Positions 3,104 to 19,096 of a stretch of 19,096 nucleotides of DNA are shown piece by piece. The stretch comes from Candidatus Undinarchaeales archaeon SRR5007147.bin71 (lineage in GTDB: Archaea; Undinarchaeota; Undinarchaeia; Undinarchaeales; Undinarchaeaceae). Position 1 is the stretch's first letter, and each line of letters begins with the position of its first letter. The stretch is from the NCBI GenBank assembly GCA_014189675.1, contig DVAE01000011.1:1-19096 (forward strand), given 5' to 3'. Made by a program: the position numbers and the translations under genes. The notes beneath the pieces were generated by a model, which had not been told where the DNA came from, searched no databases, and saw only the letters and a program-made list of their open reading frames with translations.

Positions 3104-3133
3104 TAATTTTTAACTCAGCTCAGTTAATTAAAA

Positions 3134-3141
3134 TTATATAT
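3134..3141 (+). promoter_or_regulatory. TATA box of the Cas4-like nuclease gene
   Basis: TTATATAT is centred about 28 nt before the ATG at 3166, with no Shine-Dalgarno sequence in between, so a leaderless mRNA is likely. Confidence 0.6.
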
Positions 3142-3165
3142 CCTAGCTCGGCTAATGCTATTTTT

Positions 3166-3852
3166 ATGATTGATTTTGACGAACTTGTGGACAATTACCT
3201 CAAGCGTGAAAGTAAGAAGAAAACAATTGGGCGTTACTACCCCTCAGAGATAGGCGGTTGTCTCCGAAAAATTTGGTACAGTTACAAGTTCCCAGGTGAA
3301 GAAAAGGACAAAGACTTGATAAAGATTTTTGCTCTGGGTGACATGATTCATGACTTTGTTGTCAAGGTCCTGGAAAGCGACAAAAATGCGCATATAGATT
3401 CAATCGGCGACGAAATTCCTTTCACCAGAGAAGTGGAAGACTTCATAATCTCAGGCAGAATTGATAATCTCATCCTTTTAAAAGAAGATAGTAAAAAGAT
3501 CCTTATTGAGGTCAAGTCAATCAAAAATCTCAATGGTCTTGACGATGCGAAGCCCGAACACAAAATGCAACTCCAGCTTTACATGAATTCCTTGGACATA
3601 AAGAACGGAGTCGTTTTGTATATCGACAAGCAAAATCTCAAGTCAAAGGTTTTCCCACTAGCTTACGATGAAGAAATGGCGAATAAAATTGTTGAGCGTT
3701 TCAAAGTTCTTCATACAAGCCTGGTAAATGATATAATTCCAATTCCTGAAGCTCGCATTGAGGACAAAACTTACATCTGCAGGTTCTGTGAGTACGAGGA
3801 CCGATGTTACGCCGAGACCCCGAAGCTGGAAGAGCAGAAGAAGCTGAAATAA
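3166..3852 (+). CDS. Orphan Cas4-like PD-(D/E)XK nuclease with Fe-S cysteines
   Basis: The 228-residue protein has the Cas4/RecB-nuclease layout. Cys32 sits in the N-terminal S-E-I-G-G-C-L-R-K motif. The nuclease core has His62 (L-G-D-M-I-H-D), Asp100 (S-G-R-I-D-N), Glu115-Val-Lys117 (L-I-E-V-K-S) and a Q-L-Q-L-Y-M segment at 135-140. C-terminal Cys205, Cys208 and Cys214 (Y-I-C-R-F-C-E-Y-E-D-R-C) would complete a 4Fe-4S site with Cys32. All catalytic and cluster residues are present, so it should be an active DNA exonuclease-type enzyme. No cas1, cas2 or repeat array is nearby. A housekeeping role in DNA repair or an unlinked role is as likely as CRISPR adaptation. It has its own leaderless promoter. 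Confidence 0.88.
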   Translation: MIDFDELVDNYLKRESKKKTIGRYYPSEIGGCLRKIWYSYKFPGEEKDKDLIKIFALGDMIHDFVVKVLESDKNAHIDSIGDEIPFTREVEDFIISGRIDNLILLKEDSKKILIEVKSIKNLNGLDDAKPEHKMQLQLYMNSLDIKNGVVLYIDKQNLKSKVFPLAYDEEMANKIVERFKVLHTSLVNDIIPIPEARIEDKTYICRFCEYEDRCYAETPKLEEQKKLK

Positions 3853-5170: not shown

Positions 5171-6349
5171 TCAAATCAAACCCATACTCTTTCCGACTTT
5201 CGCGAACTTTTCGACGCACTCATCCAAATCTTCCTTTGTATGACCTGCTGTAACGTTTGCTCTGATTCTTGACATGTCCTTCGCAACTAGAGGAAATACT
5301 ATTGGTTTAACGAAGACTCCTTCGTCCCACATTCTCTTCGAAAGTTCCTGCGCCTTCGAGGCCTCTCCAACTATTACGGGAGTAATTGGTGTCTGAGTTC
5401 TTCCTGTGTTGAAGCCAAGGTCCTTCATCTGCTCTTGGAAATGCTTAGTGTTATCCCACAGCCGTTTGTGATGCTCCGGTTCTTCCTGAACAATCTTAAT
5501 CGCTTCCCTGCAGGCCTGTACAATCGCCGGCGGGTGAGCTGTTGTGAAAATGAAGGAGCGGGCTCTGTTTGTCAGATAATCTCTAAGTTCCTGATCTCCT
5601 GCTATATAACCTCCAACACATCCGAAAGCTTTCGAGAGAGTTCCCATATCAATATCTACGCGGCCATGAAGCCCAAAGTGGTCAACAATTCCGCGACCTT
5701 CTCTTCCGAGAACGCCGTCTCCGTGGGCGTCATCAACCATTACCATTGCATCAAATTCCTCTGCAAGCTCTACAATCTGGTCCAGAGGAGAAATATCTCC
5801 GTCCATTGAGAATACTCCGTCTGCAACTACAAGTCGTCTTCGTGCGTCTTTTGTTTCCTGAAGTGCCTTTCTCAGACCTTCCATATCGTTGTGCGGGAAA
5901 ATCTTTCTATCTGACTTCGTCAGTCGGACTCCGTCTATAATGCTGCCATGGTTTAGTTCGTCAGATATAATCGCGTCTTCAGGTCCCATAAGTGCTTGTA
6001 TTGTCCCGCGGTTTGCGGCAATTCCTGCGACGAAAACTAGTGAAGATTCAGTTCCCTTGTACTCAGCAAGCTCTTTCTCGAGCTCGTTGTGTATTGGCAT
6101 TGTTCCATTTATCTGCCTTACAGCTCCTGTTCCGAAACCCCAGTCATCTATTGCCTTCTTTGCAGCGGCAATAACTCTCGGATGATTTGTAAAATTAAGA
6201 TAATTGTTTGAAGAAAGTGTTATGAGGTCCTTTCCATTGATTTTTATCCTCGGACCTGCTGGCGTTTCCATTACAGGTAGTTCTCCAAAAAGATTCTGAT
6301 CTTTCAGGCTTTGCACCTCTTCCTTGAGCCAGTTTGTCCTCTCAGTCAT
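5171..6349 (-). CDS. kbl: PLP-dependent alpha-oxoamine synthase (Kbl/BioF family)
   Basis: The 392-residue protein has the full-length fold-type-I layout of 2-amino-3-ketobutyrate CoA ligase (glycine C-acetyltransferase) and 8-amino-7-oxononanoate synthase. Visible landmarks are S-S-N-N-Y-L (46-51), G-F-G-T-G-A-V-R (71-78), His134 in E-L-N-H-G-S, D-G-V-F-S-M-D-G (177-184), the PLP-contacting Asp206/Asp207-Ala-His209, and the Schiff-base Lys240 in G-T-L-S-K-A-F-G. Kbl condenses glycine with acetyl-CoA (or works in reverse in threonine breakdown); BioF makes a biotin precursor. No tdh or bio gene is adjacent, so the substrate is unproved. Kbl is preferred by overall similarity as I recall it. 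The GC content appears higher than in its neighbours. A leaderless-type TATA lies upstream, and a duplicated tail lies past the stop. Confidence 0.92.
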   Translation of the reverse strand: MTERTNWLKEEVQSLKDQNLFGELPVMETPAGPRIKINGKDLITLSSNNYLNFTNHPRVIAAAKKAIDDWGFGTGAVRQINGTMPIHNELEKELAEYKGTESSLVFVAGIAANRGTIQALMGPEDAIISDELNHGSIIDGVRLTKSDRKIFPHNDMEGLRKALQETKDARRRLVVADGVFSMDGDISPLDQIVELAEEFDAMVMVDDAHGDGVLGREGRGIVDHFGLHGRVDIDMGTLSKAFGCVGGYIAGDQELRDYLTNRARSFIFTTAHPPAIVQACREAIKIVQEEPEHHKRLWDNTKHFQEQMKDLGFNTGRTQTPITPVIVGEASKAQELSKRMWDEGVFVKPIVFPLVAKDMSRIRANVTAGHTKEDLDECVEKFAKVGKSMGLI

Positions 6350-6429: not shown

Positions 6430-6514
6430 GGTCAAATATCCATTTTAGTATAAAGGGGGAGAAATGTCCAGTAATTTACGCCAATTTGGAACAATATACT
6501 CTAATATCCGAATA

Positions 6515-6522
6515 TTTATATA
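6515..6522 (+). promoter_or_regulatory. Downstream TATA box of the surface wHTH protein gene (P2)
   Basis: TTTATATA is centred 38.5 nt before the ATG at 6557, which is preceded by GGGAGTGG. The geometry is the same as at the upstream promoter, 93 bp (31 codons) away. Confidence 0.55.
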
Positions 6523-6556
6523 CAGCCTCCTTCACGGAGCACTTGGGAGTGGTAAA

Positions 6557-9406
6557 ATGTCCAGCTTTTTGGACAAAAAACTGTACAAAAGTTCTGCACT
6601 CGCTAGATATGGACTACTATTTTCTATGTCTTTCGTGTTTTTGTGCATTTTCTCAAGCTCCTCCTTTGCCCTTTCACAAACAAGCTTCGCACTTGACACA
6701 GAGAATCCTGTGTTTTCATTTTACGAAAACTCCTTAAGCAGCTCCCCTCTCCCTTTAAATCATAGCTTTTCACAATCAATTTACTCATATTCTAATATCA
6801 GCATTCCAAATGGAACCTCAGTTTCAGGGGCACAGCTCTGGTTAATTGGTCATCAGTCTCTTACAGGAGAGAACTGGGACTGGACTTACTCGGCCAGTCA
6901 GCTTCCTAATGAGACTTTCTATAACTGGTCTGAAAGTGGGAATACTCTTTCCTCAATAAGCTCAGGTATATTGACTATAAATGGTTCAAATGCTTATTGG
7001 AATTTAGATTCTCAATATAGACCAGATAGATATGATAATTTTACAGTCGAGTTCAGAGCCCGCATTTCTAACAGTTCTTCAGGTCAAATGATATTCAGTT
7101 TCCACAGAGGTTCAGAATTTGCAGGTGGCAGTTCCTATAATAATTTCAAAGGAAATGCAATGGAAATATACACAGGTCATGTAAAATTCAAAGATTCTGC
7201 TAACTCTCCAGGGGATGTATACACACATACAGATAATTACAGTCTTGATGCGACTGAGTGGCACACCTATCGTTATACCTATCTAGAAAACGGCAAAGTG
7301 AATACAATATATGTTGATGGAAAGCAGGTTCTCCAGACAAGTCATATGACTTGTATGAACTCAAACTGCGGAGGACAAACCTTTTCCGAGTTCAGATTCG
7401 GTGTTTCTGGAGGCTCAGCTATAGCAGATATTGACTATTTCCAGTTTACAAAAGGTGGCGCAAGCACTGTCTTAATTCCAAAGACTCCAAAAAATCCAAA
7501 TCTGCGTGCTGGAAGCACCCAAGTCTGGTCTGTCTCTGGTTTTTACGCCGCTGATAATAATTCAACAGGAGATTTTTCTTCTGCAATTAATTCCTATCTT
7601 GGAACTTGCACCTATCTTAACTCATCCTGCCAAGTTCCTCTCCGCTTCTATTCTGAGGCAGAAGCCATACTGGAGCTGAACCGTCTGGATGTCAATTTGA
7701 CTTACAATCACAGCGGAGCTATTTCTTCGTCTTACAATATTTCTCTATCCAACTCTAGGGGAAGTAGAGTAAACTTGGAGGAAGCAATATCTTTTATTTC
7801 AGCTCCCTCACTTTCACTTAATATCACTCAGTTCTATGTCGATAGCGGGACAAGTTCCTGTAGCATCGGTGGAATAAGTGGAACTGTTGCAACACTTGAT
7901 AACAGAAAGGTCTGTTCAATAAACTCGAGTATTCTACTTCCTTCAAACGGCTCTCTTCCAAATACGACTTATCTTCTAACAAATCATCTGTCAAAATCAA
8001 TTCTAAATTCAAGCCAGGAATCCAATAGAACTTCCAGCCTTTCAGTCCAGCACTCCTATCTGTCTTATTTCCTAAACAATACTGGCTCAGCAAATTATTC
8101 AAACATTTCCTGGACTTTTTCAGACTCTTTGAACTGCACTCTCTGCTCTGGAAATTTGTCTTCTTTTAATTCAGGGACTTCATACACAATCATCGCAAAC
8201 TGGTCCGGGGATGCTCTTGACGAGTCCTATTCTGTTTGGCAGGCTTCAGCTTCAGTCGTCGCCGGTGGCTCTGCTTCAATTTCAAGAGATATTAGTATCC
8301 TTAATACTGGCTCTACAAACTTTTCCAATATTACTATTCCTCTTACTGGAAGAAGTGCTTGGAATTGTACACTTTCACAAAATCAGACTACACTTGATTC
8401 CGGGAACTGGTCTAATATATCGAATATAGAGTCCTGTACGAAGTCCAATATAGTTTCTCTCGAACTCGGTAGTGAATACTCCACCTCAGTTTCAACTCCG
8501 AGTGATACTCTCTCTGTTGCAAGGAATCTCAGCATTGTAAATTCTGATTCCGTGCTGGCTTATTCTGTTGTTATCTCATTTACTCTCAGTGATGCTCACA
8601 ATGATTCACTTAATGTCTCTGAGTCAGGGAATAACAGCTCTCTTAGTGGTGTCACTCTCTCTTCAGGTGTAGTCACTTTCACAAGAAATATGGATTCAAA
8701 TGAGAGTCTCAACCTCATCGTTAGATATCAGAAAGATGAGCCAGTTCAAAGCCCCTCTGGCGGAGGCGGCGGAGGCGGTGGAGGCGGTGGAGGAAGCTTT
8801 AGTGCGGCTCCTGCACAAGCACCTGCGTCTGTAGAAGAGCAAGTCAATTCATCTGAAAATTCAGTCTCAGATAATACTTCACTTTCCTATTCTTCTGATG
8901 CAGATACTCACAAGATAAACATTCCTAGTGAGGATGAGAAGTACAATTCAAATTCCTTGGTTTCCGGTCTTGTTGTCTGGTCAAGAGCTCACAAAGGTGT
9001 CGCAACTATGTCGATTGGCGGAATTCTTATGTCTCTTCTGGTGTCTGCGTATGTTCTCCGTTCCGGTCTTCCTGAGTTAAAGATTCCACACACTCTAAAA
9101 TTCTCCAGAAATATATCTCAGGATTCTGCGAAACCTCAAGACTCAGATATGTCTGCAATTACTGTGTCAAAGGAAGCAAGTTCAGCGATGAACATGCTCA
9201 ATCCACGGGCAAAGGAGATTCTGGAGTTTATTTTGCAGAACGGAGGCAAGACAACCCAGGCAAAAATTTATCACTCAACAGGAATTCCGACTACAAGCCT
9301 GTCTCGCTGGGTTGACACTCTCGAGCGAAGGGGTCTTATTAAGACATACAAACTGGGCAAACTGAGAAAAATTGAGATTTCAGAATCCTTTCCAGAGAAT
9401 AAGTAA
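6557..9406 (+). CDS. Surface sensor with ConA/LamG-like domain, one TM helix and cytoplasmic winged HTH
   Basis: The product has 949 residues. After an N-terminal signal or anchor (hydrophobic at about residues 19-38), residues about 105-300 resemble a ConA/LamG-like jelly roll: F-T-V-E-F-R-A-R-I, W-H-T-Y-R-Y-T-Y, I-Y-V-D-G-K-Q-V, then D-I-D-Y-F-Q-F. Ser/Asn/Thr-rich beta-sandwich repeats follow (about 500-730), three with an N-T-G/N-S-D, N-x-S/T and cysteine pattern. Next come twelve consecutive Gly (about 735-746), one transmembrane helix (about 818-836) and a cytoplasmic winged HTH (about 878-949: A-K-E-I-L-E-F-I-L, T-T-S-L-S-R-W-V-D-T-L-E-R-R-G-L-I). I count about 40 N-x-S/T sequons, all outside. 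This predicts an N-glycosylated surface receptor that acts directly on transcription. Start 6557 has its own TATA and GGAG; an in-frame ATG at 6464 would add 31 residues. It converges on the TrmB gene with 17 nt between. Confidence 0.85.
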   Translation: MSSFLDKKLYKSSALARYGLLFSMSFVFLCIFSSSSFALSQTSFALDTENPVFSFYENSLSSSPLPLNHSFSQSIYSYSNISIPNGTSVSGAQLWLIGHQSLTGENWDWTYSASQLPNETFYNWSESGNTLSSISSGILTINGSNAYWNLDSQYRPDRYDNFTVEFRARISNSSSGQMIFSFHRGSEFAGGSSYNNFKGNAMEIYTGHVKFKDSANSPGDVYTHTDNYSLDATEWHTYRYTYLENGKVNTIYVDGKQVLQTSHMTCMNSNCGGQTFSEFRFGVSGGSAIADIDYFQFTKGGASTVLIPKTPKNPNLRAGSTQVWSVSGFYAADNNSTGDFSSAINSYLGTCTYLNSSCQVPLRFYSEAEAILELNRLDVNLTYNHSGAISSSYNISLSNSRGSRVNLEEAISFISAPSLSLNITQFYVDSGTSSCSIGGISGTVATLDNRKVCSINSSILLPSNGSLPNTTYLLTNHLSKSILNSSQESNRTSSLSVQHSYLSYFLNNTGSANYSNISWTFSDSLNCTLCSGNLSSFNSGTSYTIIANWSGDALDESYSVWQASASVVAGGSASISRDISILNTGSTNFSNITIPLTGRSAWNCTLSQNQTTLDSGNWSNISNIESCTKSNIVSLELGSEYSTSVSTPSDTLSVARNLSIVNSDSVLAYSVVISFTLSDAHNDSLNVSESGNNSSLSGVTLSSGVVTFTRNMDSNESLNLIVRYQKDEPVQSPSGGGGGGGGGGGGSFSAAPAQAPASVEEQVNSSENSVSDNTSLSYSSDADTHKINIPSEDEKYNSNSLVSGLVVWSRAHKGVATMSIGGILMSLLVSAYVLRSGLPELKIPHTLKFSRNISQDSAKPQDSDMSAITVSKEASSAMNMLNPRAKEILEFILQNGGKTTQAKIYHSTGIPTTSLSRWVDTLERRGLIKTYKLGKLRKIEISESFPENK

Positions 9407-9423
9407 AATCTTTGACGAATGAC

Positions 9424-10308
9424 TTATTCTTCCAGAGCCTTTCCTAAAATCTGAAGAGCTTTGAGTCCGAGTGGTTCAGCATCTTCAAAGATTAGGTCGT
9501 ACATCTTGTCAAGAGAATCGACCATTTCCTTTGACTCTATATACAGTCCGTTTTCCACAGAACCGGTTTTTGGGGAAACCATTCCGAGAAGCGCTCTGTC
9601 CTTTACAATAAGCATGCTCTCAATTCCAGTTCCTTCTACATATCTGCAGGTCAGGTTTCCATTTTCAAGAGCCCCCTTCAGACTTTTTATTACTTCATCA
9701 GCGTTCTCACTTTCTGATGCAACTTTTCTTATGTTTTCAAGGGAGAAGATATATTTCAGGTCGAGTCGCTTAGACTCTGTCATATCTATCATAATTTCAT
9801 AAGTTCTCCTTCTCCAGGTTGAGTTCCTTTCCGTGGACAGAAAGAGAAGTGGAGTCCTTTCAGAGATTTTTGCGGTAGTGCTATCCATTAACATTTCCCG
9901 GGCTTTTATGTAGAATTCTTCGGGGCTGCTTATTATTTTAATGCTCCCTGTTTTTTCTCCGAGCTCTGCTCGCCAGGTCTTTTCTATTTTATTAGCTACT
10001 TCTAGAGTTTTTTTCTCCGTTTGAGTCAATTTCCGTTCTTTCCTGCTTATCGCATTCTGCAGAGATTCTTTCAGGTTTCGTATAGAGTATGTCTTCGGTT
10101 TTTTGTACTCAACATCAAGGAATCCCCAATCAACAAGGTCATTCAAAAATTCGTAAATCCTCCCCTTTGGAACTTCAGTCTCTGTCCAAAGAGTTTCTGC
10201 AGAAAGTTTCTTGCCTTTGTTTGACATAAAGTGGCTCAGTAAAATTAAATGATTTTCTCTAAAATCGTATTCTTCTTTGAGCAGAGTTCTGAATTCAGGA
10301 TCTAACAT
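9424..10308 (-). CDS. TrmB-family transcriptional regulator
   Basis: The 294-residue protein has an N-terminal winged HTH (about residues 15-75: H-L-I-L-L-S-H-F, V-P-K-G-R-I-Y-E-F-L-N-D-L-V-D-W-G-F-L). A Lys/Glu coiled coil at about 80-115 would dimerise it. A C-terminal TrmB-type sensor domain (about 120-270) has A-R-E-M-L, L-L-F-L-S-T-E-R, R-R-R-T-Y-E-I-M-I-D-M and D-R-A-L-L-G-M-V. TrmB proteins usually sense sugars or other small ligands and repress or activate nearby promoters. Here it is divergent from the RNR cluster over a roughly 100-nt region, so it may control itself and that cluster. I take ATG 10308, preceded by AAAGGTGG at 5-6 nt, over the GTG at 10317 that lies inside that ribosome-binding site. 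Confidence 0.9.
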   Translation of the reverse strand: MLDPEFRTLLKEEYDFRENHLILLSHFMSNKGKKLSAETLWTETEVPKGRIYEFLNDLVDWGFLDVEYKKPKTYSIRNLKESLQNAISRKERKLTQTEKKTLEVANKIEKTWRAELGEKTGSIKIISSPEEFYIKAREMLMDSTTAKISERTPLLFLSTERNSTWRRRTYEIMIDMTESKRLDLKYIFSLENIRKVASESENADEVIKSLKGALENGNLTCRYVEGTGIESMLIVKDRALLGMVSPKTGSVENGLYIESKEMVDSLDKMYDLIFEDAEPLGLKALQILGKALEE

Positions 10309-10334
10309 ATTTCCCACCTTTAATCGGTTTAATG

Positions 10335-10388
10335 TGTGTATAGTTTAAAAATGTATTTAAAGGTTTTTGAATTATCGCAAAATACACA
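10335..10388. promoter_or_regulatory. Shared divergent promoter and candidate operator between trmB-like and RNR genes
   Basis: Two TATA candidates nearly touch: TTTAAAAA (plus strand, 10344-10351) and TTTAAATA (minus strand, 10354-10361). The plus-strand TATTTAAA over the latter could also serve the RNR side. They are framed by an inverted repeat, TGTGTAT (10335-10341) and ATACACA (10382-10388). The left arm falls near the predicted start of the trmB transcript and the right arm near or just after the predicted RNR start. A dimeric regulator bound to both arms could affect both promoters. Binding by the TrmB protein is inference. Confidence 0.5.
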
Positions 10389-10412
10389 TAGGAAAGTTTT
10401 AAGGTGGTTAAA

Positions 10413-12245
10413 GTGACTGCGCAAATCTCCTCTTCGATAGAAAAACCCGAGTCCGTTCGAGTAAGAACGTCTCAGAATGTTCTAGTTCCTTTCAGTAAAG
10501 AGAAGATTGTAGTCTCTCTGGTGGATGAGACAAACATAGATGAGGCAATTGCCAAGTCAATTGCCCAGGAAGTTGAGCACGACGTCTCTAGGATGCACTT
10601 AAAATATCTAACTGCACCTCTAATAAGAGAAATCGTCAACGTGAAGCTCCTTGAACACGGCTATGAGTCTGCCAGAATGAGATACACACGTCTTGGTATG
10701 CCTGTTTATGACGCTCGTGAGCTAATATTCACAGGTCCGTCTGAAAGCGAGGGAATCCCACACAATCCTGAGACAGTTCACAAGATGATGGCTGATGTTG
10801 TTTCAAGAGAATATTCCTATGTGAATATACTTCCTCCAACTAGAGTGGATGATCATATGAGCGGAAACCTACACATTCATAGGCTAAATTATTTTGCAAC
10901 TCGGCCTTACTGTTTCTCTCACGACATGAGGCCATTTTTGAGAAGTGGTCTTAAGGTGGATGGTCTTGGAAGATTTGCACCTGTTGCAGGTCCTGCAAAA
11001 GCTCCTGATGTTGCATTTCTGCAGGCCTCAAGAGTTCTCTCTGCTGCTCAGACAAACTGTTCAGGAAGTCAGGGTCTCATAGCTTTAAACGTTCTTCTTT
11101 CTCCCTATGTCACAGGTCTTGATTATACTCAAATAAAACAGCTAGTTCAGATGTTTGTTTTTGAGATGAGCCACATGTACGTAACTCGTGGCGGTCAGAC
11201 TATGACTTCAACAATAGATTTGCATTTTAACGTTCCCAAAAATCTGGCATCTTGTGAGGCTGTTTCATCAGGAGGTTCTGTAAAAGGAGTCTACTCTGAT
11301 TATTCCACAGAATCAGAATCTATTTTAGAAGCATTTCTGGACATTTATATTCAAGGAGACTACGCCGGGAATCCATTTAAATATCCTCAACTTAATCTCT
11401 TCCTCGGTGACTCTCCATCTGAGAAACTTCTTTCAAAAGCCCTGGAGCTTACAGAGAAATTCCAGACTCCTTATTTTGTTCTGGGAGATCAGGAAGGACT
11501 AACATACCAAAATTCATCCTACATTTTCAACTGCCCGGATGGTGAGCCCTCTCGTGGTGGCGTCCTTCAGACTGTTACTATCAATCTTCCAAAAATTGCC
11601 TATGATTCTAACACTGACGAGAACCGATTTTTTACTATTCTTGACCAAAGAATGAGTGCTGCAAAGGATGTACTTTTCCTCAAAAGAGAGGTCGTTCATC
11701 GTAGTATGGAAGGCAATCTTATTCCATTTCTCCAGCAAAAAATCCCTGATAATGAGTCCTATCTCATTCCTGATATCCAGCCATTATCAATTGGGGTGAC
11801 TGGCATGAACGAGCTTCTTGAAATCATGACAGGTGTTCCACTTTCTGATAAAACTGGTCAGGACTTTGGGCGCAAAGTACTTGGGCGCATGAAGGAAAAT
11901 GCAGAAGAGTACAGGAAGCAGAGCGGTCTTAATTTCCAGATAGCAGGCTGCCCAGCCACGAAAGTTCTGGGAAGATTTTTCAAAATAGACTCAATAAATT
12001 ATAGTGCTGCGTCAAAAATTGGAACTTATACTCCTTCGTTTGAAGCTTCCCCGAAGCTTGATGCATCCAATAAGCTTTTATCTGAGTCTAGCCTACTTCC
12101 ATTTCTGGATGGCGGGGCGCTTCAGTCACTTCCAGTTCCTGAATCTGGAAAGCTTCGAGAGCTTCTTGATGAGGCAGTGAAGTCTGGTTCGAAATATATC
12201 AAGTTTGAGCGGAGGAGAAAAAATGCAAAAAACAGAAACACTTAA
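10413..12245 (+). CDS. nrdD: NrdD-like (class III RNR) protein without the glycyl-radical segment
   Basis: The product is 610 residues from GTG 10413, chosen because AAGGTGG ends 5 nt before it (an in-frame GTG at 10404 lies inside that site). Residues about 15-105 are an ATP-cone (R-T-S-Q-N-V-L-V-P-F-S-K-E-K-I; G-Y-E-S-A-R-M-R-Y). The body matches class III RNR: T-R-P-Y-C-F-S-H-D-M-R (163-173), Y-V-T-R-G-G-Q-T (256-263), N-C-P-D-G (373-377, Cys374 a candidate thiyl) and V-T-I-N-L-P-K-I-A (388-396). It ends after the F-L-D-G-G-A-L-Q loop, and the usual zinc Cys motif and RVCGY-like glycyl site are absent. No nrdG activase is beside it. It overlaps the next gene by 23 nt, so coupling is likely. 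It could be a regulatory or non-canonical subunit, or be completed in trans. Confidence 0.85.
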   Translation: MTAQISSSIEKPESVRVRTSQNVLVPFSKEKIVVSLVDETNIDEAIAKSIAQEVEHDVSRMHLKYLTAPLIREIVNVKLLEHGYESARMRYTRLGMPVYDARELIFTGPSESEGIPHNPETVHKMMADVVSREYSYVNILPPTRVDDHMSGNLHIHRLNYFATRPYCFSHDMRPFLRSGLKVDGLGRFAPVAGPAKAPDVAFLQASRVLSAAQTNCSGSQGLIALNVLLSPYVTGLDYTQIKQLVQMFVFEMSHMYVTRGGQTMTSTIDLHFNVPKNLASCEAVSSGGSVKGVYSDYSTESESILEAFLDIYIQGDYAGNPFKYPQLNLFLGDSPSEKLLSKALELTEKFQTPYFVLGDQEGLTYQNSSYIFNCPDGEPSRGGVLQTVTINLPKIAYDSNTDENRFFTILDQRMSAAKDVLFLKREVVHRSMEGNLIPFLQQKIPDNESYLIPDIQPLSIGVTGMNELLEIMTGVPLSDKTGQDFGRKVLGRMKENAEEYRKQSGLNFQIAGCPATKVLGRFFKIDSINYSAASKIGTYTPSFEASPKLDASNKLLSESSLLPFLDGGALQSLPVPESGKLRELLDEAVKSGSKYIKFERRRKNAKNRNT

Positions 12246-14733
12246 CGGCTATGCCAATATGTTCGAGTACGATAGCAGTCTTATAAAAAAAGTCGGTATC
12301 GAGCCAGTCAATACATACAAAGATATTCTTTCCTATATTAAGGAAAGACAGGCCGATGGAAGCTTGCCAGTCCATCCTGAAGATTATCTCTGTGGTAATG
12401 AGCTCGCCAAAAACATATTCGAGAAAAAATATTATCTCAAAGATTTAGAAACAAATCTTATTGATCAGAAACCTGAGGATGTCTACGCCAGACTTTCTGC
12501 TTTCATGGCTTCACTAGAAGATTCTGATGAGAAGAGAAAAAAATGGGCGGCAGAATTTTACAAGGATTTGTATGAGGGTCACTATGTTCCTGGTGGAAGA
12601 GTTATTGCAGGTGCTGGAGATCTTTATAGATTAAAAACTCTTGCCAATTGTTTTGTTGCTTTAATTAAAAAGGACAGTATAGAGTCGATATATGATGCAG
12701 CCTATCAGTGTGCAAGGACTGAGTCATACGGAGGAGGAATCGGAATTGATGTATCTACATTGCGACCAAAAGGGGCCGTAGTTCATAATGCTGCTGACAC
12801 TTCTACTGGAGCTGTTTCTTTTATGGATATTTATTCTCTTACGACAGGTCTTATAGGTCAGTCCGGGAGAAGGGGAGCTCTGATGCTTACCTTGGACGTC
12901 AAGCACCCAGATATTCTGGATTTCTTAAAAGTCAAGAAGGTTTCTAACTGGGTCACTAAACAAATTGTTGAGCAGTGCAATTGGTCCGGAAAGTTCAATG
13001 ATTCTCAGCTGGAGATAATTGAGAAACAAGTCCGAGAGAATACACAAATCCGTTTTGCTAATATCAGTATAAAGGTATCTGATGAATTTATGCAGGCCGT
13101 TGACGAGCAGACAAAGCACGGTCCAGATAAGTTATTGCTTTACAAGAAGCCTAAGGGAACTGTTATGAGAGCTCCGCAGACACTTTCTGTGAATTATTCC
13201 TATGGGATGCCTTCAAAAGATGTTTCGGAATATGAGCTTCTAGGAAATTTTGATTCTTTAGATTCTCTCAATGAAAAGCTGAAGAGTGATTACAATCATC
13301 AGCTTAAAATCTCAGATCTTGAAGATGTCAAGAAAAGAGATTTATATGGAGATTATCCTGTTGAGTTGGAAAAAGATTACGATCTGTCTGTAAAATATGC
13401 CGGGGATTTTCTTTTGTACTTTGAGTCAGAAGATTCAGGGGATACAAAAAACTTGGTCAAGGCTCGTGATGTGTGGGATCTTTTCATAGAAGGCAATTAC
13501 CAGACTGCTGAGCCTGGACTTATTTTCTGGTCCTCAATGACAAAGTATTCTCCTTCAAATTATGTCGGACGTCCTATAAGTTCAACAAATCCCTGTGGAG
13601 AGGTTCCACTTGAGGATGGAGGGGCGTGCAATCTTGGGTCTGTAAATCTGTCTCGAATGGTAGACGAGGGATATACAGATAATGCGTCCATTAATTGGGA
13701 GCGTCTGGACAGAGCAGCCAGCAACATTACAAGATTCCTTGATAACGTTGTCACATGGAATGAGAGTCTCAACGCACTTGAGAGTCAGAGAATTGCCGCC
13801 GGAGAAACCCGCCGTCTTGGTATAGGAGTTATGGGTATTGCAGATCTTCTAAACCAGCTAGGTCTTGGATACGATTCTGAGGAAGGAGTTAAAATCATAG
13901 AAAAAGTCATGAGCCGAATAGCCAATACAATATATAGTACTTCGGCACATCTTGCGGAGGAGAAGGGAAGCTCCCCAATTTATGACTATGAAAAATATTC
14001 ACAAAACCCCTTTTTCAAGGAGAGCCTGGAGGATGAGACAAAGGAACTTATTAAGAAAAAAGGTCTCAGGAATATCGCCCTCCTGTCTATAGCGCCTACT
14101 GGGTCAATTTCAAACATAGTTCTGGGATTCAAAGACGGAGATAAAAATTATATTGGTGTAAGTGGTGGGGTTGAACCAATTTTTGCTCTGTATTATACAA
14201 GGCGTTCAGAGTCATTTGGTAATAAGCTCTTTAAGGTATTCCATGGGACAGTCCAGGCTTATCTAGATGTGAAAGGGCTTTCCAATAAGGCAGAGAGTAT
14301 AGGGTCAGATAGTGATTTAAAAAATATACTTCCTGAGTATTTTTTCAGGACTGCTCACAATATTGATCCTCAACAAAGAATAGTGGCTCAGTCAATTTGT
14401 CAGAAATATATAGACCACAGCATATCATCAACATGTAATCTTGCTGAGGACATAGAGCCAGAAGTTATTTCAAGCATGTATATTGAAGCATGGAAAAAAG
14501 GTCTCAAGGGAATTACAATATACAGGGAAGGAAGCCGTTATCCAATACTTAGTGTTGATAATAAGGATAGTGAGTTCCAGAAGTTCAAGGACAAGAAGTT
14601 CAAAATACTAGGAGAGGATGGTGAGGAGCAAAGTCTTAATGGGGATAGTGTTATATCCCTGGCCGACGGTCGCTTGACAACAGTCTACCACGCAATAAAA
14701 TCAGGAAAGATAGACTTAGGGGGTGGTAGCTAA
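12223..14733 (+). CDS. nrdJ: Class II (adenosylcobalamin-dependent) ribonucleotide reductase, tail-less, with large insertion
   Basis: The product is 836 residues. ATG 12223 is preceded by GGAGGAG at 12211-12217, the best ribosome-binding site in the window; an in-frame TTG at 12205 would add only six residues. The active-site signature is intact: Asn456-x-Cys458-x-Glu460 in S-T-N-P-C-G-E, with the redox pair Cys143 (A-N-C-F) and Cys469 (A-C-N-L-G-S-V-N-L) and the phosphate loop A-P-T-G-S (624-628). There is no N-terminal ATP-cone. Between N-I-S-I-K-V-S-D (281-288) and R-D-V-W-D-L (415-420) it has about 100 residues more than the second paralogue. The C-terminus lacks the reducing Cys motif, which is encoded as the next gene. 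It reduces ribonucleotides to deoxyribonucleotides with B12. The NrdD-like gene upstream may supply the missing ATP-cone. Confidence 0.93.
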   Translation: MQKTETLNGYANMFEYDSSLIKKVGIEPVNTYKDILSYIKERQADGSLPVHPEDYLCGNELAKNIFEKKYYLKDLETNLIDQKPEDVYARLSAFMASLEDSDEKRKKWAAEFYKDLYEGHYVPGGRVIAGAGDLYRLKTLANCFVALIKKDSIESIYDAAYQCARTESYGGGIGIDVSTLRPKGAVVHNAADTSTGAVSFMDIYSLTTGLIGQSGRRGALMLTLDVKHPDILDFLKVKKVSNWVTKQIVEQCNWSGKFNDSQLEIIEKQVRENTQIRFANISIKVSDEFMQAVDEQTKHGPDKLLLYKKPKGTVMRAPQTLSVNYSYGMPSKDVSEYELLGNFDSLDSLNEKLKSDYNHQLKISDLEDVKKRDLYGDYPVELEKDYDLSVKYAGDFLLYFESEDSGDTKNLVKARDVWDLFIEGNYQTAEPGLIFWSSMTKYSPSNYVGRPISSTNPCGEVPLEDGGACNLGSVNLSRMVDEGYTDNASINWERLDRAASNITRFLDNVVTWNESLNALESQRIAAGETRRLGIGVMGIADLLNQLGLGYDSEEGVKIIEKVMSRIANTIYSTSAHLAEEKGSSPIYDYEKYSQNPFFKESLEDETKELIKKKGLRNIALLSIAPTGSISNIVLGFKDGDKNYIGVSGGVEPIFALYYTRRSESFGNKLFKVFHGTVQAYLDVKGLSNKAESIGSDSDLKNILPEYFFRTAHNIDPQQRIVAQSICQKYIDHSISSTCNLAEDIEPEVISSMYIEAWKKGLKGITIYREGSRYPILSVDNKDSEFQKFKDKKFKILGEDGEEQSLNGDSVISLADGRLTTVYHAIKSGKIDLGGGS

Positions 14734-14957
14734 TGGTGATAAAATTCGGACAATCAACAATTTCTTTACAGGAAGTAGAGACTTCTTCCGAAAATGAGGA
14801 AAGGCTCACAGAGTCATCGTCTGAGGACGCTGAAGAATCTACTGAAGAAGGAACTCTTGCCAAATGTCCAAATTGTGAGCAAAATACCCTGAAAATAGAG
14901 CAGGGATGTTCCTCCTGTACAAATCCTGAGTGCGGAATGAGCAAGTGCGACTCTTAG
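14733..14957 (+). CDS. Detached class II RNR C-terminal Cys tail (redox/zinc-ribbon protein)
   Basis: The 74-residue protein has a Ser/Glu-rich flexible first half (about residues 12-41). A compact Cys motif follows: C45-P-N-C48, E-Q-G-C59-S-S-C62, N-P-E-C67-G-M-S-K-C72. This C-P-x-C ... E-G-C-x-x-C ... C-G-x-S-K-C pattern is the tail normally fused to the C-terminus of class II NrdJ. There its last cysteines re-reduce the active-site disulfide and hand electrons from thioredoxin. Here the ATG overlaps the last base of the nrdJ stop codon (TAATG), with GGGGGTGG upstream, so it is a separate, translationally coupled gene. Both class II paralogues lack this tail, so it may serve both. Confidence 0.85.
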   Translation: MVIKFGQSTISLQEVETSSENEERLTESSSEDAEESTEEGTLAKCPNCEQNTLKIEQGCSSCTNPECGMSKCDS

Positions 14958-14965
14958 TTTAAATA
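14958..14965 (+). promoter_or_regulatory. Internal TATA box in front of the second nrdJ
   Basis: TTTAAATA is centred 26.5 nt before the ATG at 14988, starting at the stop codon of the tail gene. The second nrdJ and cobA can therefore be transcribed, leaderless, apart from the upstream RNR genes. Confidence 0.6.
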
Positions 14966-14987
14966 TTAATGTTGCCTATATTGTATT

Positions 14988-17039
14988 ATGGCAAAAATTT
15001 CTAAACTTTCCAGAGTAAAGAAGAGAGGTGGCGAGGTTGTTCCATTTAGGCCTAAGAAAATCAAAGAGGCTATCTGGAATGCCGCCCAGTCTGTTGCTGG
15101 AAAAGATAAGGATCTTGCCTATTCAATAGGGCAGGAAGTTGTCAAGTCTCTTCAAACTAAATATCCTGGGGCAGTTCCAAGTGTTGAGGATATACAGGAT
15201 GTTGTTGAGAAGTCCCTCGTTGAGGGAGGTCATTACAGAACTGCGAAGGCGTATATACTGTTCAGACACGAGAGAGAAAAAGAAAGGACAGAGCAAGAGT
15301 TCGTTCTTGGAGAGAGTTTTAAGGAAAGCAATCTTAATTTTTCTACCTATGCTCTTGAGGTTTTGAAGGGAAGATGCCTCCTGAAAGATCACAATGGAAA
15401 TGTTATAGAGACTCCCCAGAAGCTTCTTAAGCGTGTTTCAAAGGCAGTAGCTGGTGCTGAGAAGGATTATGGCTCAAAATCAACAAGGAAAACAGAAGCC
15501 GAATTTTATGGTATGATGAAAAATCTTCAGTTTTTACCAGGAAGCCCATTGCTTTCAAATGCAGGAACTCAGATGAACCAATTGTCTTCATGCCTAGTTC
15601 TCCCAATAGAAGATTCAATTTCAGGAATATTCGGAACTCTCCAGACTGCCGCTCTTGTAAACAAAAATGGAGGGGGTACAGGATTTTCCTTTACTCGGCT
15701 TCGCGGTAAGCGCGGTGTGGTTGCCGGGGGTGCTGATACTGCAGCAGGTCCTCTGGCTTTCATGGATGTTTTTGACAGTTCTGCAAATGCTATAAAACAA
15801 GGCGGCAGAAGAAAGGGGGCTAATATGGGAATTCTCAGAATTGACCATCCTGATATTTTTGATTTTATCAGTTCAAAAAATCGTCCTGGGAGGCTTACTA
15901 ACTTCAACATATCGGTTGCTATAACTGATGCCTTTATGAAAGCTGTTTTGAAGGATGGAAAATTCAACCTCATCGACCCTAATACAAAAAAGAAGCTTAG
16001 AGAGGTTCGGGCAAAAGATTTATTTGATCTCATAGTTCATAGTGCCTGGCTCACAGGGGACCCTGGTATTGTTTTCATAGATCAGATAAACAACAAACAC
16101 CCTTGCAAACATCTTGGAGATCTTGAGGCAACCAGCCCATGTGGTGAGGTCCCACTCCTTCCAAATGAAAGCTGTAATCTTGGCTCAATAAATTTGGTTT
16201 CGATGGTGAAACCAGATTGGAGCGATCTTGACTGGAGTCTTCTCCGTCAGACAGTCCAAAAAGCTGTCAGGTTCCTGGACAATTCTCTTGATGCTGCCAG
16301 CTACGCGAGTCATGACATAGAGTTTGCAACAAAGAGTACAAGAAAGATAGGACTTGGTATATTTGGTTTCGCTGACATGCTCTATATGCTCGGAATAAAA
16401 TACGATTCAAAAAAAGGTCTTGCGATGGCTGAGAAGCTTATGAAGTATATTAAGGACACAGCGTACAATACATCAGAAATCCTGGCGAAGGAGCGGGGGA
16501 CTTTTCCAGCTTGGGAAGGCTCTTTACATCATAAGAATAAGAGGCGCATGAGGAACGCCACATGCCTTGCAATTGCTCCTACAGGAACAATCAGCATACT
16601 CGCCGATGTGTCTTCTGGCTGTGAGCCAAATTTTGCAATTTCCTATGTCATGACTGTTCTTGATAATAGCCGCTTCGTTTACACAAATCCCATTTTCGAA
16701 AAGATTGCCATGGATCAGGGCTTTTATTCTCCAAGTCTGATGGCGGATATTGCGAAAATTGGATCAATTCAAAATTTCAAAGAGATTCCAAAGAATATAA
16801 AGGATGTTTTCGTGACTTCTCTTGATATCTCCCCTGACTGGCATATCAAGATTCAGGCAGCCCTCCAAAAATACGTTGATAATTCAGTCTCGAAGACAGC
16901 GAACCTCGTAAACACGGCAACTCTGAAGCAAATTAATGATACTCTGATTCTTGCATGGAAGAGTGGCTGCAAGGGAATCACAGTATATAGGGAGGGAAGC
17001 CACCCACACCAGGTTATATCCACTGGCGAAAGAAGATGA
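14988..17039 (+). CDS. nrdJ: Second class II ribonucleotide reductase, with ATP-cone, tail-less, Ser in catalytic triad
   Basis: The product is 683 residues. Residues about 8-95 form an ATP-cone ([22 protein letters not shown]), giving allosteric control. The catalytic barrel follows: G-S-P-L-L-S-N-A-G (185-193), redox Cys202 (S-S-C-L) and Cys396 (S-C-N-L-G-S-I-N-L), G-G-G-T-G-F-S (228-234) and A-P-T-G-T (530-534). The thiyl motif reads Ser383-Pro-Cys385-Gly-Glu387, whereas family members typically have Asn in place of Ser. The Ser codon AGC is one step from Asn AAC. The chain ends soon after [10 protein letters not shown], with no Cys tail. It overlaps cobA by 4 nt (ATGA), so cofactor synthesis and use are coupled. 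It is probably functional, with altered triad chemistry to be tested. Confidence 0.93.
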
Positions 17040-17638
17040 GACTTGGAGATACACCCAATTCACGAACTGGTCTTGGACTAGTTCATGTGTACACTGGGGA
17101 CGGAAAAGGGAAGACAACTGCGGCTCTTGGTCTGGCCATGCGTGCAATTGGGCATGGCATAAAAGTTTACATGATACAATTTCTAAAAGGAGGAACATAC
17201 GTCGGGGAGTATCTTGCCTCTGAATCCTTTATGCCCAATTTCACAATAAAACAATTTGGTAAAAAATGCACCTATTCTGACATGTACAAACAAGATAGAG
17301 ACTACTCTTGTGGAAGTTGCAGGGATTGTTTCATGACAAGTTCTGAGATGATTAGCAGTTCTAAGGAGGCTCTTGAGCTTTCCAAGGAAGTCAGCTCATC
17401 CGGAGATTATGGCCTAGTTATTTTAGATGAGATAAATATTGCTCTCAGTTTCAAGTACATAAAAATAGAGGATGTTTTGGAAATGCTCACGAATAAGAGT
17501 GAGTCAACAGAGCTGGTTCTAACAGGTAGGGGGGCACCTGAGGAAATCCGGGAAGTGGCAGATTACGTTACAGTTCTTCAAAGAGAGAAGCATCCATTTG
17601 ACCGCGGAATTATGGGGCGTTGGGGTGTAGAATACTAA
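17036..17638 (+). CDS. cobA: Corrinoid adenosyltransferase (CobA/CobO/BtuR family)
   Basis: The 200-residue protein has the family P-loop G-D-G-K-G-K-T-T (21-28), followed by A-A-L-G-L-A-M-R-A-I-G-H-G and V-Y-M-I-Q-F-L-K-G. The Walker-B-like L-V-I-L-D-E-I-N-I-A-L-S and L-V-L-T-G-R-G-A-P-E near 155-165 follow, and it ends with K-H-P-F-D-R-G-I-M-G-R-W-G-V-E-Y. It transfers the adenosyl group of ATP to cob(I)alamin-type corrinoids, giving adenosylcobalamin, the radical cofactor of class II RNRs. The start codon overlaps the stop of the second nrdJ (ATGA). Unusual is a Cys-rich insert, Cys78, Cys92, Cys95 and Cys98, which could bind a metal. The context argues that it feeds the two reductases. 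Confidence 0.93.
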   Translation: MRLGDTPNSRTGLGLVHVYTGDGKGKTTAALGLAMRAIGHGIKVYMIQFLKGGTYVGEYLASESFMPNFTIKQFGKKCTYSDMYKQDRDYSCGSCRDCFMTSSEMISSSKEALELSKEVSSSGDYGLVILDEINIALSFKYIKIEDVLEMLTNKSESTELVLTGRGAPEEIREVADYVTVLQREKHPFDRGIMGRWGVEY

Positions 17639-17948: not shown

Positions 17949-18176
17949 ATGGGATTACTTGGAAAGGTTCTTCACTTGTCAAAAAGTGGAAATATAATAG
18001 TCAGCTCTTTAAAATTGAGGAACTTGCCCAGAACTGGTGTAAAGGCTTTTGATTCTGATAGGATTGTTATCGGAAAGGTTTCAGAAGTTTTTGGTCCTGT
18101 TTCAAGTCCATATGTCTCTGTGAAACCCTTCAATAAAGATAAAGAGGCTTTGATTGGTAAAATGGTGTATGTATAA
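17949..18176 (+). CDS. gar1: H/ACA RNA-protein complex subunit Gar1
   Basis: The protein has 75 residues from ATG 17949. Landmarks of the Gar1 beta-barrel are [10 protein letters not shown] (2-11), the central P-R-T-G-V-K-A-F-D (28-36) and [20 protein letters not shown] (41-60). The ending is G-K-M-V-Y-V. With Cbf5, Nop10 and L7Ae, Gar1 forms the guide-RNA particle that converts uridine to pseudouridine in rRNA and tRNA. In-frame start codons at 17928 and 17931 lie too close to the TATA box. The stop overlaps the start of tfb by one base (TAATG). The gar1-tfb pair is widely conserved in archaea, which supports both calls. Confidence 0.93.
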
Positions 18177-19096
18177 TGGCAGAAAAATGTCCTGAGTGCA
18201 ATTCAGAAAGTGTGTCTTTTGATTCAAAGAGAGCGGAGACTGTGTGCAATAAGTGCGGAATTGTTATAGATGAGAGGCAGATTGATACTACACAGGAGTG
18301 GCGTGCCTTTGACTATGAACAGAGAAAGAAGCGCGACAGAACAGGCTCCTTTCTTACCTATACAAGGCACGATAAAGGGCTTTCTACTTCTATCGGAGAT
18401 CAGGGCTACAGCGACCTATACAAACTATCTCCTTCAAAGAGGGCATCATTCTACAGGCTTAAGCGATGGCACAAACAAGTTTCAACTGCCACTGAAAGAA
18501 ACCTTCGATTTGCTCTTAGCGAGCTCGACAGAATTTCAAGCACTCTGAGCTTACCAAAAAACATCAGGGAAACTACAGCACTTATTTACAGAAAAGCGGT
18601 TACAAAGGGTCTCGTTCGTGGCCGCTCAATGGAAAGCGTTGTTGCTGCCGCTCTCTACGCCGCATGCAGGAAACACAATGTTCCAAGAACTCTCGACGAA
18701 ATTGCAGAAGCTTCCAATGTTAAGAAGAGGGAAATAGGAAGGACCTATAGATTCATAACAAGAGAACTGAAGATAAAACTTCTTCCGACTTCGCCTATTG
18801 ATTACATTTCAAGGTTTTCATCTTCCCTGAAACTTTCCCCCTCTGTTCAGGAAGAGGCAATTAAAATACTCAAACAGGCCCAGGAGCACGATCTTGTTTC
18901 CGGTCGCGGGCCAACAGGTGTTGCCGCAGCGGCCATATATGTTTCCTCAACATTGTCAAATGAAAAGAGGACTCAGAGAGAGGTTGCAGAGGTTGCAGGT
19001 GTTACTGAAGTTACAATAAGAAACCGCTATAAGGAGCTCATAGATGAGCTCGGAATCGCTGACAAAATGAGTGAAGCTTCAGCGAAAGAAGACTAA
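18176..19096 (+). CDS. tfb: Transcription initiation factor TFB (TFIIB homologue)
   Basis: The 306-residue protein is complete; its TAA is the last codon of the window. An N-terminal zinc ribbon has Cys5-x2-Cys8 and Cys24-x2-Cys27. The B-reader/linker carries E-W-R-A-F and [19 protein letters not shown] (about 62-80). Two cyclin-like repeats (about 110-200 and 205-300) contain [10 protein letters not shown] and [10 protein letters not shown], ending in a DNA-contacting HTH ([21 protein letters not shown]). It recruits RNA polymerase to TATA/TBP complexes. It is translated from the gar1 mRNA through a one-base TAATG overlap. Confidence 0.98.

Follow-up and report, generated by a model that had tools for sequence, protein, structure and literature searches.

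The window analysed here, the whole 19,096-nucleotide contig DVAE01000011.1 of Candidatus Undinarchaeales archaeon SRR5007147.bin71 (GenBank assembly GCA_014189675.1), carries a cluster of five ribonucleotide reductase (RNR) genes. The cluster is read, with a shade better than even confidence, as an adenosylcobalamin (AdoCbl)-dependent class II RNR system drawn from three sources, in which a class II chain, NrdJ1, and a free-standing cysteine-rich zinc tail (CRD) would be catalytic, and a second class II chain, NrdJ2, and a non-catalytic homologue of the class III reductase NrdD would be regulatory or structural partners. RNR is the sole de novo route to DNA precursors, and the cluster genes are the only RNR genes of the assembled genome. 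The five genes, the last of which encodes the adenosyltransferase CobA, are as follows.

10413-12245, forward strand: NrdD-like pseudo-reductase, 610 residues, GTG start; PF13597 276 bits, NrdD-fold model, catalytic and substrate motifs lost.
12223-14733, forward strand: NrdJ1, class II RNR catalytic chain; PF02867 and PF00317, no ATP-cone and no cysteine tail.
14733-14957, forward strand: free-standing CRD (NrdJb-like), 74 residues; PRK08665 positions 705-758, a separate gene in three species.
14988-17039, forward strand: NrdJ2, tail-less class II RNR with a canonical ATP-cone (71 bits) and the barrel; TIGR02504 649 bits, cut-off 400.
17036-17638, forward strand: CobA, ATP:corrinoid adenosyltransferase; PF02572 188 bits, adjoining NrdJ in G001, G002, G297, G038, G366, G117 and G098.

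The window is the complete contig 33 of a 623,718-base assembly that is 83% complete. Searches of the genome with PF13597 and PF02867 gave no matches outside the cluster, and a six-frame scan of all other contigs (604,622 bases) gave no second NrdD or NrdJ, no NrdG and no NrdR. Furthermore, all six frames of the complete assembly were free of any glycyl-radical motif in plausible context, and the sole radical S-adenosylmethionine motif that sits in a plausible protein belongs to the lipoyl-synthase type (CTRACRFC). The NrdG profile had no match in G000, G004 and G005. The genome also encodes a WCGPC thioredoxin. The comparison set included six genomes from the host phylum, including the sister species UBA55 and ARS1358, which are public metagenome-assembled genomes 75 and 86% complete; both agree with the window genome on their NrdD, NrdJ and NrdG content. 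A first-pass annotation, made from the window alone, had named a complete nrdD/nrdG and a full-length nrdJ elsewhere in the genome, and the lack of the neighbourhood in relatives, as findings that would speak against a distributed system; the scanned assembly contains no such genes, and the neighbourhood is kept in all three species of the genus.

In these three species the five RNR-cluster genes are intact and syntenic, and the order TrmB/NrdD-like/NrdJ1/CRD/NrdJ2/CobA/Gar1/TFIIB is identical, with protein identities of 76-99%. The ratio of nonsynonymous to synonymous divergence (dN/dS), calculated by the Nei-Gojobori method with our own script for the window against UBA55 and then against ARS1358, whose large synonymous divergence makes its ratios approximate, was 0.150 and 0.076 for the NrdD-like gene, 0.110 and 0.058 for NrdJ1, 0.079 and 0.152 for the CRD, 0.088 and 0.058 for NrdJ2 and 0.033 and 0.041 for CobA. 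Therefore, the cluster is not a chance arrangement, since the order is kept across three species with dN/dS of 0.03-0.15 for the five RNR genes, and the NrdD-like protein is kept under purifying selection. The genes are tightly packed, with overlaps of 23 nt between the NrdD-like gene and NrdJ1, 1 nt between NrdJ1 and the CRD (TAATG) and 4 nt between NrdJ2 and CobA, and a gap of 30 nt between the CRD and NrdJ2. Comparison with the two sister species moved the NrdD-like start to GTG 10413 (not 10404) and that of NrdJ1 to ATG 12223 behind GGAGGAG (not TTG 12205). The first-pass description of five genes beside a TrmB regulator, with their domains, is confirmed by open reading frames (ORFs), profile matches and the three species.

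NrdJ1 reaches 494 bits against TIGR02504 (cut-off 400; STNPCGEVPLEDGGAC), and it has the RNR barrel, both reducing cysteines and a finger loop of the NPCxE type; NPCGE and the equivalents of C225/C462 are intact, and NrdJ1 breaks none of the 61 positions that are invariant in 22 other NrdJ. The CRD aligns with no more of the NrdJ model PRK08665 than its final 54 positions and shows a six-cysteine pattern, CPNC...CSSC...CGMSKC, at about 14868-14952; profile searches with its 74 residues found no family besides this CRD end, and the IscU-like/TSCPD domain is absent. Judged by motifs and profiles, NrdJ1 and the CRD are evidently a canonical class II enzyme of split design. A frameshift or assembly error behind the break between them is ruled out by stops in both frames within 14727-14733 and by separate genes in three species, so that the detached tail of the first-pass annotation is a real separate protein. 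Before the break NrdJ1 carries a further element.

14539-14730, forward strand: NrdJ1 C-terminal extension, GDSVISLADGRLTTVYHAIKSG, conserved in the split relatives of the NrdJ subclass.

The pattern of this extension in the subclass is GDxVIxLPDGxLTTxYHxIKxG, and it is likely to be the dock of the CRD. In Pseudomonas aeruginosa, hydrogen-deuterium exchange mapped NrdJb binding near the C-terminus of NrdJa (PMC4520616). That system likewise has a catalytic chain with a C-terminal extension and the CRD in the next gene, where the CRD is needed for dithiol exchange; unlike it, the archaeal CRD is a 74-residue chain that has no IscU/TSCPD-like domain, and the archaeal locus adds CobA, a dead NrdD and another, tail-less NrdJ. 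Thus NrdJ1 and the CRD would operate like NrdJa/NrdJb, yet would fall outside that subclass since they have no IscU-like/TSCPD domain. The CRD shares the six-cysteine pattern CxxC...CxxC...CxxxxC of class II NrdJ with CRD (PMC5704485), but is a free protein, and two NrdJ chains occur in one cluster.

With NrdJ1 as the query, a distinct NrdJ subclass was found in seven other small archaeal genomes (1082-1258 bits), and a separate CRD ORF adjoins NrdJ in five of them, namely G178 (89 residues), G062 (44), G142 (182), G136 (273) and G165 (201), the last two ORFs also containing a TSCPD domain; in G159 no CRD was observed near NrdJ, and in G172 the contig ends there. A detached tail, seen in five further small-genome archaeal families, appears from these loci to be usual for the subclass, and a detached class II tail was already known from NrdJa/NrdJb (PMC4520616; PMC5704485). 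An ATP-cone is present on three of the nearest relatives of NrdJ1 (G178, G159 and G062) and absent from NrdJ1 in the window genus. The subclass with detached CRD is seen at L138, L140, L141, L142 and L143 of small-genome archaea; in G062 the NrdJ/CRD genes are followed by a PduO-type adenosyltransferase and NrdR, and in G136 by an NrdR-like gene. Phage and plasmid NrdJ were ruled out as close kin (<37% identity), and a viral scan with NrdJ1 gave distant matches only.

The NrdD-like protein matches positions 5-492 of the 562 in PF13597, and because the alignment stops at 492 its glycyl end is missing. In addition, motifs are changed at four places, among them substrate-binding motifs whose loss the first-pass annotation overlooked.

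10743-10754, forward strand: lost NxN flap site; ENAN in functional NrdD, ESEG here.
10872-10883, forward strand: HxHD triphosphate motif; HIHD changed to HIHR.
11508-11522, forward strand: finger loop; QNSSY in three species where relatives have QCC(S/A), both cysteines gone.
11949-11960, forward strand: TPAE loop changed to CPAT.

Moreover, YTNS has become YTPS; the beta-A cysteine (RPYC) is retained. In the structures of P. copri NrdD the NxN flap and HxHD bind the substrate, and Cys416 and Gly711 are the radical sites (PMC11226230); in the SCCR motif of the T. maritima enzyme C329 and C330 are essential, and the finger loop is equivalent to SCCR/MGCR (PMC4493059). With no glycyl domain, radical cysteine, NxN flap, HxHD, TPAE or NrdG, the NrdD homologue is, on the strength of its sequence, a pseudo-reductase incapable of class III catalysis. 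The predicted model (mean predicted local distance difference test score 72.5) matches P. copri NrdD 8p2s (Z 33.9, 2.4 Å over 450 residues), a match of fold only since the model resolves neither the finger loop (361-384) nor the flap (93-114).

The fold and the ATP-cone-like N-terminus are like those of the class III QCCR/A (NrdD3-like) group (PMC9669993), from which the pseudo-NrdD differs in the motifs, domains and activase listed above. The functional proteins closest to it, those of families f15 and f82 (43-46% identity), have YQCC(S/A), a complete glycyl domain and, in nearly all cases, NrdG; identity to them peaks at residues 51-100 and 151-250, which cover the latter half of the cone and the barrel region at the N-terminus. 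Similar losses occur elsewhere. In G002, from a second family of the host phylum, an NrdD homologue without glycyl domain and TPAE, its N-terminus cut by the contig end, shares a 13-kilobase contig with NrdJ-CobA and keeps the second finger-loop cysteine (QNCSY in the alignment to QCC-type relatives). In family f41 of another phylum, NrdD copies have lost the same motifs in G350, G383 and G117, and those of G399 and G098 are partial or badly degraded; nrdJ-cobA occurs in G117 and G098 and NrdJ pieces in G350, and the f41 pseudo-NrdD adjoins neither trmB nor nrdJ. NrdG above the curated cut-off (TIGR02495) was present in none of nine pseudo-NrdD genomes versus eight of nine with intact NrdD (the exception being G038), a comparison among related and partly incomplete genomes that carries no formal p value. 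The tree makes no firm case for one common origin of the pseudo-NrdDs: it puts them beside f15 on long branches with weak support (SH-like approximate likelihood-ratio test 22, ultrafast bootstrap 59). Searches confined to open-access papers yielded no description of this cluster or of an NrdD without catalytic function.

NrdJ2 keeps all three catalytic cysteines and the glutamate; it has no CRD, no cysteine after the barrel and no NrdJ1-type C-terminal extension. Its active-site motif is altered, a second point overlooked by the first-pass annotation.

16134-16136, forward strand: Asn to Ser in the NrdJ2 NPCGE motif, residue 383 (SPCGE), in all three species.

The NPCxE motif is present in 3,175 of 3,347 class II sequences (PMC9669993). 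In the three species NrdJ2 breaks 5-6 of the 61 invariant positions (S236T, S257A, T266A, R276K and N383S, with L677I in two); T266 is variable beyond the comparison set, being isoleucine in T. maritima, and 21 of the 22 other NrdJ break 0-2 positions, one outlier breaking 7. NrdJ2 does not necessarily share the CRD, since it has no counterpart of the extension that NrdJ1 carries beside it. The pair with CobA is like that of other B12-dependent NrdJ beside CobA/BtuR, and a tight nrdJ-cobA pair without NrdJ1 recurs in the genomes of seven related archaea, two from the host phylum (G001 and G002) and five from another archaeal phylum; the NrdJ beside CobA has its own CRD in G001, G002, G117 and G098 and a CxxC end in G297 and G038, whereas NrdJ2 is tail-less with SPCGE for NPCGE. 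The nrdJ-cobA pair is probably old in the host phylum, since the window CobA is sister to the CobA of G002.

The claim that allosteric, catalytic and electron-delivery parts are spread over one cofactor-linked system was in part sustained. The split tail, the placement of the cones (none on NrdJ1, 71 bits on NrdJ2, only 29 bits on the NrdD-like protein) and the CobA link (188 bits) all stood. The five genes, however, are not one ancestral module, because the NrdJ1-CRD pair occurs in other small-genome archaea, the NrdJ-CobA operon occurs without NrdJ1 in relatives, and the pseudo-NrdD is a further component. It is well supported that NrdJ1 would be the working chain, forming its thiyl radical with AdoCbl supplied by CobA, and that the separate CRD would re-reduce the active-site disulfide of NrdJ1, the role that NrdJb has towards NrdJa, and presumably draw on thioredoxin. 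An ancestor of the phylum may have had a CRD-bearing NrdJ and CobA near the pseudo-NrdD; in the window genus the NrdJ1-CRD pair would have been inserted between the pseudo-NrdD and NrdJ2-CobA, after which the resident NrdJ2 would have shed its tail and diverged at positions of the active site. The five proteins may act together. Tentatively, at chances somewhat below even, the older reductases may have been retained to serve NrdJ1 in an allosteric or structural role, with NrdJ2 giving a nucleotide-sensing ATP-cone in trans and the pseudo-NrdD giving its conserved cone and N-terminal barrel region. Regulation in trans would fit a genome in which NrdJ1 has no cone and two related neighbours, their active sites eroded, do have one. 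The boldest form, in which the dead class III chain and the tail-less, altered class II chain stand in complex with NrdJ1-CRD and control activity by nucleotides in trans, making one holoenzyme with homologues from two RNR classes, is unlikely.

Several points weigh against partner roles for these proteins. Contact between the products is something that we infer; NrdJ2, with its catalytic cysteines and glutamate kept, may be fully active; and the relatives of NrdJ1 in other archaea have no NrdD match. Nucleotide binding by the NrdD-like cone is doubtful, as its PF03477 match is weak (29.1 bits, cut-off 25.8) and VRTSQN stands in place of the KRDG lid, likewise in functional relatives, and monophyly of the pseudo-NrdDs is only weakly supported. 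Furthermore, the genes may form two transcription units, nrdD-like-nrdJ1-crd and nrdJ2-cobA, because a TATA-like element is conserved in the gap between the CRD and NrdJ2, where it is a probable leaderless promoter for nrdJ2-cobA.

14958-14966, forward strand: TATA-like TTTAAATAT, ~27 nt before the NrdJ2 start codon, identical in three species, no Shine-Dalgarno.

The same element serves the strongest competing account, somewhat unlikely in our estimate, that NrdJ2 is an independent, active second class II RNR borrowing the CRD or an external dithiol, with the pseudo-NrdD as an unrelated nucleotide sensor and the genes kept together through the theme of deoxynucleoside triphosphates (dNTPs), not as one complex. 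It would explain why C, E and both reducing cysteines are retained at dN/dS of 0.06-0.09 behind an own conserved promoter-like element; the tail-less NrdJ of G297 and G038, ending in CxxC, presumably work, and two NrdJ with one CRD occur in Frankia and some Alphaproteobacteria (PMC5704485). It sits badly with a chain that has neither a cysteine after the barrel nor the NrdJ1-type extension and in which 5-6 invariant positions, including the N of NPCGE, are broken.

Upstream of the cluster lies a divergently oriented TrmB gene.

9424-10317, reverse strand: TrmB-family regulator; PF01978 28.6 bits, 89-96% identical and in the same place in two sister species.
10318-10412, between the divergent genes, no strand assigned: promoter/operator region of 95 bases; inverted pair TGTGTAT (10335)/ATACACA (10382), TATA-like tatttaaa at about 10354-10361.

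About 96% of the columns of this trmB/nrdD-like intergenic region are identical in three species, while synonymous sites differ by ~60% for ARS1358. The first transcription unit is probably under the control of TrmB. The strong conservation of the region between the divergent TrmB and pseudo-NrdD genes, an ATP-cone-type N-terminus and the absence of NrdR from the genome would suit a dNTP-responsive, NrdR-like expression regulator made of the pseudo-NrdD with TrmB or another factor, instead of an RNR subunit; the protein has no DNA-binding domain, and the f41 pseudo-NrdD lies away from trmB and nrdJ, so this is improbable. Still less probable is that the NrdD-like protein and NrdJ2 are functionless relics being lost: catalytic motifs have gone and branches are long, but dN/dS of 0.076-0.150 (NrdD-like) and 0.058-0.088 (NrdJ2) is near that of NrdJ1, frames are intact in three species, and dead NrdD is retained in several genomes of two phyla. 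Class III activity of the NrdD-like protein with a glycyl domain supplied in trans is scarcely credible. Free-standing glycyl domains do exist in archaeal class III RNRs, including that of G003 in the host phylum, but G003 keeps the catalytic motifs and NrdG, whereas the window protein has none of the finger-loop cysteines, the NxN flap, HxHD or TPAE, and neither glycyl domain nor NrdG was found in the six-frame assembly scan or two sister genomes.

Archaeal NrdD with the glycyl radical domain as a separate downstream ORF of about 50-85 residues was seen in G003 (L021:1194-3149 and 3153-3332), where the zinc site is divided, one CxxC on each chain, and a thioredoxin-like gene and NrdG follow. 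The same arrangement was found in G065 (L192:1182-3293 and about 3317-3463), G082 (L193:2052-4088 and 1754-2011 minus), G194 (L194:1116-3155 and 3109-3258) and G013 (L035:1489-1647 minus); no description of free-standing NrdD glycyl domains was found in the open-access literature searched. In G068, G235, G145 and G028 a frame distinct from that of NrdD encodes the glycyl radical domain joined to a glutaredoxin/thioredoxin-like domain with CPRCPAAKE (L189:3832-4437; L187:1372-1860 minus; L186:1809-2318 minus; L190:1653-2186 minus). Moreover, the IMG/VR viral contigs L091 (about 4.5-4.9 kilobases) and L093 (about 4.5-5.0 kilobases) have NrdD without glycyl domain and, directly upstream, a Cys-rich glycyl-domain ORF of 148-154 residues. 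A tandem pair of complete NrdD genes lies at G396:C45:43276-47786, and NrdD frames of 1575-2154 residues in G152:C62, G262:C39, G332:C87 and G244:C46 suggest inteins.

The window also encodes TFIIB, Gar1 and an Lsm-like protein, in keeping with an archaeal host. A KBL-like enzyme (5171-6349) and TFIIB (18176-19096) show 98-99% identity between species in which the RNR proteins show only 85-88%, and hence the RNR cluster evolves fast. At 6464-9406 an ORF of 980 residues, 89% conserved in ARS1358, has an N-terminal secreted or membrane part that includes a glycine run and, towards the C-terminus, a hydrophobic stretch followed by a winged-helix-like domain; its product resembles a surface sensor whose tail binds DNA.

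In the papers searched, the split tail is known from Pseudomonas, and no description was found of the archaeal subclass with detached CRD or of a conserved non-catalytic NrdD. With this cluster the range of split class II RNR, a few gammaproteobacteria before, takes in several families of small-genome archaea. If, in two or more archaeal phyla, class III chains persist next to class II enzymes after losing their chemistry, annotation as NrdD would not equal anaerobic RNR activity and an RNR pseudoenzyme family would become testable; the cluster is a natural setting for asking whether ATP-cone activity regulation works in trans.

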